Assembly (NCBI RefSeq): GCF_015354405.1
Contig: NZ_JADKYP010000057.1
Location: forward strand, 1 to 41,477
DNA length: 41,477 bases
Reading direction: 5' to 3'
Source: Nocardia sp. BSTN01
GTDB lineage: Bacteria; Actinomycetota; Actinomycetes; Mycobacteriales; Mycobacteriaceae
Position 1 is the stretch's first letter. The number at the start of each line of letters is the position of its first letter. Of this stretch, positions 14,462 to 15,151 are shown in pieces. Both the position numbers and the translations under genes were made by a program. The notes beneath the pieces are model-generated. The model was not told the origin of the DNA and searched no databases. It was given only the letters and a program-made list of their open reading frames with translations.

Positions 14462-14857
14462 TCAGCGGCGGGCGATACCGAGATGCGTCAGAATGTCGCG
14501 ACCGGTGCGGGGCGGCGGGCCCGGCGGCCCGCGCACGGCGGTCGCGTGACGGTGCCACCGGGCGGGGGTCACCGCGGCCACCGCATCCCACACTTGGCCG
14601 GGCGGCCACAGCTTCACCGGATCCGCCGGAAGTACCGAATCCAGGACGATGTGCCTGTCGTGCGCACAGCAGTCGTCCCAGGCGGGCAGATGCGAACCAA
14701 GATGGGCCAGTGTGGATTTCGCGGCGGCGGACGATGCGGAAGTGCCGGCCGTCTCGGCATCGGCGACCACGCAATCGGTATGCAGCGCAACGAGTGTGAG
14801 CAGGGCGACGAAGATCATGGCCACGACACCCCGCCGCGACCGACGGACGGAGCTCAC
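14462..14857 (-). CDS. lpqS: LpqS-like Cys/His-rich exported protein
   Basis: A 131-residue protein, close in length to the about 130-residue LpqS of M. tuberculosis, and ending in the same style (RGPP...TGRDILTHLGIARR). A basic start and one hydrophobic segment (about 11-25, GVVAMIFVALLTLVAL) form a signal or anchor. Cys29, Cys63, Cys64 and many His (26, 52, 56, 66, 69) could bind copper. There is no clear lipobox, so lipid attachment is doubtful. GTG 14857 is chosen because it overlaps the stop of a well-placed upstream ORF (GTGA) and gives the family length; an in-frame GTG at 14932 would add 25 Arg/Ala-type residues with no Shine-Dalgarno at proper distance. Confidence 0.75.
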   Translation of the reverse strand: MSSVRRSRRGVVAMIFVALLTLVALHTDCVVADAETAGTSASSAAAKSTLAHLGSHLPAWDDCCAHDRHIVLDSVLPADPVKLWPPGQVWDAVAAVTPARWHRHATAVRGPPGPPPRTGRDILTHLGIARR

Positions 14858-14940
14858 CGCATCCGCACCCACCGCTCGACCGACCGCAGCGGCGCACAGA
14901 CCCGAGGCCGGAGTCCACGCCGGGCCGGACACCGATCCAC
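14854..14940 (-). CDS. Upstream ORF coupled to lpqS, 28 residues
   Basis: A short frame starting GTG 14940 (or TTG 14943) eight bases after a strong GAGGAGG (14955-14949). Its TGA overlaps the GTG of lpqS as GTGA. The peptide is Arg-rich with Cys4 and Cys15. The strong ribosome site belongs to this frame, not to lpqS, so lpqS translation probably depends on ribosomes that finish here. A regulatory role in copper response is inferred. In GC-rich DNA short open frames arise by chance, so the call rests on the site and the overlap. Confidence 0.55.
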   Translation of the reverse strand: MDRCPARRGLRPRVCAPLRSVERWVRMR

Positions 14941-14975
14941 CAACCCAGCCTCCTCACCACGATCGCCACTGTCGC

Positions 14976-14998
14976 GCAACACCTTCACACGGTGTTGC
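14976..14998 (-). promoter_or_regulatory. Leader hairpin upstream of the coupled ORF
   Basis: GCAACACC and GGTGTTGC are perfect 8-base arms around a 7-base loop, ending about 20 bases before the Shine-Dalgarno of the upstream ORF. No T-run follows, so it looks like a leader structure rather than a terminator. Confidence 0.5.
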
Positions 14999-15019
14999 CG
15001 AGCATCGAGCCGGATGTCA

Positions 15020-15033
15020 CCCCACCGCTGGGG
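15020..15033 (-). promoter_or_regulatory. Second leader hairpin
   Basis: CCCCA and TGGGG arms around a four-base loop, within the putative lpqS leader. Short but GC-rich; could be structural only. Confidence 0.3.
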
Positions 15034-15056
15034 AACGCGGCAACAGGCTCGATAAC

Positions 15057-15086
15057 ATCTACTACTTACGTACGCAACTAGTAGAT
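15057..15086. repeat. 8-bp inverted repeat with 14-base spacer
   Basis: ATCTACTA (15057-15064) and TAGTAGAT (15079-15086) are perfect complements; the spacer contains TACGTA. It is AT-rich against the local background and lies inside the lpqS leader. It could be an operator of a second regulator, an RNA hairpin, or hold a second promoter. Confidence 0.5.
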
Positions 15087-15132
15087 CATAACCGCCGAAG
15101 AGGCGGGAGCCGCCGACTGGGCGACACCATGT

Positions 15133-15151
15133 AATATACCCCTAGGGGGTA
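15133..15151 (-). promoter_or_regulatory. CsoR/RicR-like operator overlapping a -10 element
   Basis: TACCCCCTAGGGGTA read on the minus strand (15151-15137) is a G/C-tract palindrome of the type bound by copper-sensing CsoR and RicR. It overlaps TATATT (15138-15133), a good -10 for transcription toward lpqS. Apo-regulator bound here would block RNA polymerase; copper would release it. From the -10 to the lpqS start is about 270 bases of leader. Confidence 0.75.

Follow-up and report, generated by a model that had tools for sequence, protein, structure and literature searches.

CruR, encoded by a DUF2946 upstream open reading frame (uORF) of Bordetella pertussis, carries CXXC and RAPP motifs 45 residues apart, by which it links copper to the arrest of ribosomes and to Rho termination, and leaders of this type are named in mostly Proteobacteria and a few Planctomycetes, Firmicutes and Deinococcus (PMC9426467). 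In Rhodobacter capsulatus, the gene that follows CutF is covered by a stem-loop, which translation of CutF opens (PMC9973294). The RicR regulon of Mycobacterium tuberculosis takes in lpqS and cysK2 (PMC10470581), and an lpqS mutant of this species is reported to be copper-sensitive and impaired in growth (PMC10956863). No molecular role for LpqS appears in the literature covered. Here we describe the lpqS–cysK2 operon of Nocardia sp. BSTN01, contained in a 41,477-nucleotide (nt) stretch of DNA (the window) whose positions are used throughout. An original prediction placed a second, translational layer of copper control in a 28-codon frame upstream of lpqS, with the encoded peptide or its stalling as the gate. 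Our comparisons suggest that such a layer, if it exists, more likely lies at LpqS and the gap between lpqS and cysK2, which by its conservation and covariation is a structured RNA. The features concerned are:

14462–14857, minus strand: lpqS, 131 amino acids, identified with the NCBIfam model LpqS_Mycobact; RGPP with 19 residues after it and CC-H 44 residues before it.
14361–14470, minus strand: lpqS–cysK2 structured RNA, from the last lpqS codons to the cysK2 ATG, predicted by alignment folding, covariation and model R1.
13254–14363, minus strand: cysK2-like gene, 369 amino acids, PALP fold by profile match; by eye without a canonical Shine-Dalgarno sequence, with GAAAGCGACA upstream instead.

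The gap is 98 nt long in the window and strongly conserved, and 64 of 73 gaps measured span 81–162 nt. Folding of single gaps was discarded as evidence (67 gaps had a mean z of −1.5, and 24 of them were lower than −2), and because its energy was modest we relied on covariation in an alignment (A2) of 42 hand-chosen Nocardia gaps, most of which came from 105 distinct ones and the window. RNAalifold predicted four helices in this alignment. In this structure 96.7% of cells were paired, compared with 94.0% in shuffles. Two-sided changes affected 8 pairs (shuffles 3.1; slid controls at most 4) and 26 cells (shuffles 5.0). None of 500 shuffles was as high on these three measures, though the tool cautions that relatedness among sequences can be enough to exceed shuffles of this kind. 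Changes on both sides of a pair are located in the inner helix and the third hairpin. A closing helix joins the end of lpqS (its last codon and the U of the stop codon) to the AGCG before the cysK2 ATG and is paired in all 42 sequences.

Model R1 found the gap itself as its sole match in the BSTN01 genome (E 2.3e-21, the window being among the sequences used to build the model, whose E-values are rough). It also matched in 86 of the 151 Nocardia genomes of our genus comparison set, many of them species used to build R1, and in 47 of 401 genomes of the family, distributed over 4 of 31 genera. Nine of 33 loci outside the model matched below E 1e-7. Seventeen of the 132 RNA places listed had no adjoining LpqS in the first listing; 3 of these matched LpqS rows of the second listing, and 12 were read individually. 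In 11 of the 12, the model start coincides with the end of an LpqS-like frame, and in 11 a cysK2-like frame follows by eye, broken or short in L360 and L363; the element at L362 lies ahead of a 14-codon frame. The element is also kept at L358 and L361, where LpqS has no RxPP, and at L363, where no LpqS frame precedes it. Several Nocardia genomes carry more than one copy of lpqS and the RNA (9 and 9, respectively, in G019, 5 and 4 in G016, and 4 and 3 in G065), which suggests amplification of a cassette.

The RNA could alternatively be a metabolite riboswitch or a protein-binding site that serves cysK2 alone, independently of the LpqS nascent chain. Unpaired stretches such as GATACAGAAAGCGACA are strongly conserved, cysK2 is annotated as a sulfur-metabolism gene, and the RNA outlasts the RxPP motif or the whole LpqS frame at the three loci just named. 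Against this, the RNA starts 5 or 2 bases short of where the LpqS match ends in 115 of the 132 places listed, its closing helix uses the lpqS stop codon and would be disturbed by a translating ribosome, and no Rfam riboswitch matches it: the Rfam 15 families gave 0 matches at gathering thresholds for the window, with a best E of 2.6 for 14340–14560. We regard this alternative as credible, if short of probable.

The gene at whose end the RNA begins encodes a protein that scored 43.7 bits against LpqS_Mycobact (cut-off 35). We collected 159 LpqS sequences with this model, which may favour the RxPP motif (L142 and L256 were dropped, and near-duplicates are present); R-x-PP occurs in all 159, as RGPP in 109, RAPP in 44 and other forms in 6, with 18–23 residues following. 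In an alignment (A3) of 114 LpqS with a mean column identity of 28%, the only invariant residues are R109, P111, P112, G119 and R130. The commonest Pfam match of these 114 proteins is DUF2946 (32 at E ≤ 1, best 1.8e-4); the next family matches 9. As described for CruR and CutF, lpqS heads a copper operon and is separated from the next gene by a long gap, the copper link coming here from the family name and the RicR regulon. A conserved CXXC or CXXXC was not found in LpqS; C-x(0–9)-C occurs in 78 of the 159 proteins, 65 of these as Cx6C, and the window protein has CC-H, with 44 residues between the CC and RGPP. The resemblance of LpqS to DUF2946/CruR copper-sensing leader proteins is weak in these comparisons, and we do not call it a CruR member because no LpqS scored reaches the DUF2946 cut-off and a conserved CXXC is lacking.

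Several observations weigh against a CruR-like LpqS read by a stop-closed RNA. The best LpqS score against DUF2946 (PF11162) was 22.7 bits for a cut-off of 23.7 among the 10 members tried, and the window LpqS has no Pfam match. RxPP stands 18–23 residues from the LpqS C-terminus, compared with 3 in CruR, and among the 11 further LpqS-like frames beside the RNA it is present in 8, replaced by HGPP in L359 and absent from L358 and L361. Within the 42 Nocardia sequences the closing helix changes on one strand and never on both. In favour of this helix, a comparison of its two ends across clades gave a better fit for true partners than for shuffled partners (11.48 versus 10.73, standard deviation 0.12, 0 of 1000 shuffles as high, 86 distinct pairs), in a test that ignores relatedness and is not tied to one register (CGCT/AGCG is best in 35 of the 86). 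Finally, the other 24 of the 33 loci outside the model have no R1 match below 1e-7, and many loci beyond Nocardia match weakly or not at all; R1 found nothing at the named loci of Williamsia (L072) and Skermania (L073).

Ribosomes would be brought to lpqS by two elements further upstream:

14949–14955, minus strand: GAGGAGG Shine-Dalgarno sequence; with its spacer, 0.931 identity in 8 sequences.
14854–14940, minus strand: 28-codon upstream frame VDRCPARRGLRPRVCAPLRSVERWVRMR, recognised from the sequence and by comparison, whose TGA overlaps the lpqS GTG; read here as a coupling frame.

The sequence bears out the original description of this leader. The GAGGAGG at 14955–14949 serves the 28-codon frame, whose GTG at 14940 follows with a spacing of 8 nt; the TGA at 14856–14854 overlaps the lpqS GTG at 14857–14855 as GTGA; the peptide has Cys4 and Cys15; and lpqS appears to lack a ribosome site of its own, with no Shine-Dalgarno sequence seen by eye directly before GTG 14857. 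A further GTG in the lpqS frame, absent from that description, lies at 14932, 16 nt past the same GAGGAGG. Openness of the frame and the GTGA carry little weight alone because none of the three frames is closed within the 84 nt in any of the 8 aligned sequences and a candidate start of the form NTGA occurs at 136 of the 159 lpqS loci, many of them without any Shine-Dalgarno frame.

In the near-relative comparison (11 distinct sequences, window included), 8 keep the GAGGAGG, the start position, the 28 codons and the TGA within GTGA. In L007, which has a deletion, and in L010 (N. veterana), which differs, the same start is in frame with lpqS and there is no separate peptide. In the more distant L092 the frame has 38 codons and closes on the lpqS GTGA. 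The 46 distinct changes in the upstream frame include 11 synonymous ones, compared with 13.9 expected at random on the same bases (P for that many or more, 0.88), whereas four control stretches of equal length in lpqS all showed a synonymous excess (P 0.002, 0.003, <0.001 and 0.0035). Third codon positions of the frame are the least variable (8 of 26, versus 15 of 27 and 13 of 27), the opposite of a coding pattern, and identity is 0.954 and 0.958 at its two ends and 0.706 in the middle. The third frame of the 84 nt gave no coding signal either (P 0.11). A second clade has 9 frames of 44–47 codons with unrelated sequences, 6 of them without Cys, and no coding constraint (37 synonymous changes versus 42 expected).

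These results bear on the proposal that the 28-residue peptide, through Cys4 and Cys15 or by stalling, senses copper and gates lpqS. Both cysteines are present in every one of the 8 nova-group sequences whose frame is separate, and L092 and L010 also open with a start, two residues and CP. The first seven codons are, however, conserved as nucleotides beside the Shine-Dalgarno sequence, where a TGT could persist without selection for Cys. The frame contains neither CXXC nor RAPP and lacks the conserved peptide of a CruR-like uORF, two near relatives do without a separate peptide, and constraint is missing from both clades. We consequently rejected the Cys4/Cys15 peptide as a sensor and think copper control by the peptide or its stalling very improbable.

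The frame could also be unused, its overlap with lpqS an accident, and lpqS be read from GTG 14932 or from a leaderless promoter. GTG 14932 lies downstream of the same Shine-Dalgarno sequence, the L007 and L010 starts are in frame with lpqS, and many lpqS genes elsewhere have a −10-like TACAGT a few bases ahead of their GTGA and look leaderless, in keeping with the NTGA starts noted above. On the other hand, the spacing of GTG 14932 is 16 nt, by eye no −10-like box stands just ahead of GTG 14857, and overlapping frames occur in two clades. An N-terminal LpqS extension from 14932 was rejected as a constrained coding sequence, with 16 synonymous changes versus 15.1 expected (P 0.44). We consider an unused frame unlikely. 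An RNA structure in the leader between palindrome B (described below) and the Shine-Dalgarno sequence was tried as well and dropped as weak, with two-sided changes in 6 of 85 pairs when 8 sequences were folded.

The relation of the start to lpqS extends to loci that were not selected for it. Among the 159 lpqS loci, 60 have a GGAGG and a start within 260 nt and 99 have none; 31 of these starts run in frame into lpqS, 24 open frames ending on its start and 5 do neither. Restricting the count to starts more than 60 nt upstream and removing identical neighbourhoods (n = 44) left 17 in frame, 21 ending on the start and 6 in neither class, against one third expected (P 0.003, relatedness not corrected). 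Because the frame of the start is tied to lpqS in both counts, the delivery of ribosomes to lpqS seems to be kept and the peptide not. A caution comes from the second clade: its nine frames were selected for ending on lpqS, which makes their whole-codon length differences uninformative, and their mates L127, L130, L133 and L134 are fused to lpqS instead. The link of lpqS translation to the upstream frame is supported by these comparisons, and the best reading is that the frame provides ribosome entry and stop–restart coupling, with Cys4 and Cys15 incidental.

The promoter region and the remainder of the operon comprise:

15137–15151, minus strand: RicR/CsoR-type palindrome TACCCCCTAGGGGTA over the promoter, found by sequence match.
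15133–15138, minus strand: TATATT, −10-like by sequence (putative promoter P1).
15085–15090, minus strand: TATGAT, a second −10-like element abutting palindrome B (possible promoter P2), shared by 6 of 8 aligned sequences (alignment A1).
15059–15084, minus strand: palindrome B, 26 bp, CTACTAGTTGCGTACGTAAGTAGTAG, a candidate BlaI-family operator from genome pattern searches (reversed-pattern control 0).
11983–13314, minus strand: MFS transporter gene by profile match, start uncertain.

Matches to the LpqS_Mycobact, PALP and MFS profiles confirm the predicted gene order, lpqS, a cysK2-like PALP gene and an MFS gene, downstream of an extracytoplasmic function (ECF) sigma gene resembling SigK (15182–15790) that ends 30 nt ahead of the RicR-type box. 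The nearest named relatives of cysK2 are in N. aobensis, N. kruczakiae, N. cerradoensis and the N. nova group. As originally noted, the palindrome overlaps the −10: TACCCCCTAGGGGTA occupies 15151–15137 and TATATT 15138–15133, and together they have a mean pairwise identity of 0.987 across 8 sequences, window included. The sequence TACCCCNNNNGGGTA occurs at four places in the BSTN01 genome, with a both-strand match at the operon promoter alone. The promoter thus bears a RicR-type palindrome, which we take to be RicR's own type, and a copper-type promoter is supported by these matches. The original interpretation survives in part: the comparison favours the copper-type promoter and the link between frame and lpqS and disfavours control by the peptide or its stalling.

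Palindrome B, arranged as CTACTA-N2-TACGTACGTA-N2-TAGTAG, is a candidate second operator. Reversed-pattern controls returned 0 in every search that follows. Palindrome B was matched at 4 places in the BSTN01 genome (up to 3 mismatches), in 25 of the 159 lpqS upstream regions (up to 6), at 33 sites in 673 kb of loci L002–L081 (up to 5) and in 49 of the 151 Nocardia genomes (up to 2). Among the 159 upstream regions it accompanies a RicR-type box in the window alone; both are also present at the nova-group loci L002–L008 and L010, which lie outside that set. Among the 75 B sites listed, examined with the 101 BlaI-like and 33 distinct lpqS entries among the matches listed, 40 have a listed BlaI-like gene no more than 2 kb away, where 0.07 would be expected, and 20 have lpqS no more than 1 kb away; 52 have either neighbour and 23 neither. 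PF03965 was confirmed for the BlaI-like pair of the BSTN01 genome and for four proteins scanned, and B sites adjoin PF03965 repressor genes; the pair lies at C163 and C124, with a B site about 1.1 kb from the second of these genes. Palindrome B is probably bound by a BlaI-family repressor, as its neighbourhoods suggest. It lacks the ACANNTGT core of the cop box when its sequence is compared with the published consensus. In many Nocardia its neighbours are BlaI-family genes, a multicopper oxidase and lpqS, and from the last two, in other species, we infer a link to copper. Telling the other way, B need not mean copper, because other sites in the BSTN01 genome lie near a PadR-like gene and apparent secreted-protein genes. 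At L195, L197, L203 and L205, repeated GTTAC/GTTAT units stand just before an apparently leaderless lpqS, which also has palindrome B, roughly 300 nt upstream of it.

This operon may well have a second layer of control that acts after transcription. In the account that we favour, transcription would start from the promoter under the RicR-type box and, in this clade, would also pass palindrome B, probably bound by a BlaI-family protein. GAGGAGG would load ribosomes for lpqS: in the window, these would read a 28-codon frame of indifferent sequence, stop on the GTGA and restart at lpqS, and in some relatives the same start would lead directly into lpqS. The upstream peptide would not sense copper. 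Behind lpqS, cysK2 would be shielded by the folded RNA, whose closing helix would pair the lpqS end with the cysK2 start region, and its translation would depend on ribosomes reaching the lpqS stop and breaking that helix. LpqS would be a CruR-like leader protein, its RxPP possibly pausing the ribosome before the stop in a copper-dependent manner. The elements, their conservation, the covariation of the inner helices, the missing peptide constraint and the frame relation between the start and lpqS are observed; how the promoters are used, whether ribosomes reinitiate and pause, whether copper matters and which way its effect runs are what we infer. Taken whole, the account (two promoter operators, a sequence-indifferent coupling frame and an RNA-gated cysK2 with a CruR-like LpqS) has our confidence by a narrow measure. 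The further proposal that LpqS is an actinobacterial nascent-chain copper sensor, whose RxPP pause is read by the stop-closed RNA as a cysK2 on/off switch across Nocardia and three or more further genera of the family, is more tentative, and we would sooner expect it to fail than to hold.

If LpqS is an RNA-read leader protein, the phenotypes of lpqS mutants might partly reflect effects on cysK2 and the transporter. Copper-sensing arrest peptides would then extend beyond the groups named for CruR (PMC9426467), and a structured RNA would become available for probing. If the coupling reading is true, the upstream frame is kept as a frame and not as a peptide, a caution for the annotation of uORFs. 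Coupling frames, RicR boxes and CruR-type leaders belong to kinds already described. What appears to be new is the RNA element, together with palindrome B and the link between LpqS and DUF2946, in that they were not found in Rfam 15 or in the open-licence PMC literature searched; the search listings from that literature gave no account of palindrome B, of the lpqS–cysK2 RNA or of a leader role for LpqS, and no match for lpqS with a uORF and copper. Two surveys of new bacterial RNAs do not mention cysK, lpqS or Nocardia in their main text.

Among described systems, the RicR regulon of M. tuberculosis shares with this locus the lpqS, cysK2 and transporter genes and a RicR-type box; the Nocardia locus, where that box is putative, adds a second palindrome (B) and an extended leader that contains a coupling frame (PMC10470581). 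The CopR–CopY cop box RNYKACANNTGTMRNY is, like palindrome B, a palindromic operator beside BlaI/CopY-type repressor genes, but palindrome B has 26 bp and no ACANNTGT (PMC7253601). Short upstream frames reviewed for translational coupling have the same stop–start overlap after a strong Shine-Dalgarno sequence and a downstream start without its own; among the relatives compared here, in contrast, some have this start fused to lpqS and others use it for an overlapping frame (PMC12548453).

The closest parallels are CruR and CutF. Like LpqS, CruR, which is exported by prediction, is a small first-gene protein of a copper operon with R-x-PP, a long gap to the next gene and metal-type residues at a similar distance before the motif (45 residues in CruR, 44 in the window LpqS) (PMC9426467). 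It differs in having 3 residues after RxPP, where LpqS has 18–23, and in its CXXC, which is not conserved in LpqS (Cx6C in 65 of 159); the LpqS gap is folded and conserved, LpqS falls below the DUF2946 cut-off, and the 28-codon frame has none of the features named here (PMC9426467). CutF is likewise a DUF2946-like exported protein, and a stem-loop that shields the start of the next gene is opened by its translation with copper; the RNA of the Nocardia gap, by comparison, is predicted to have several helices, to be conserved across genera and to close on the stop codon of the leader gene itself (PMC9973294).
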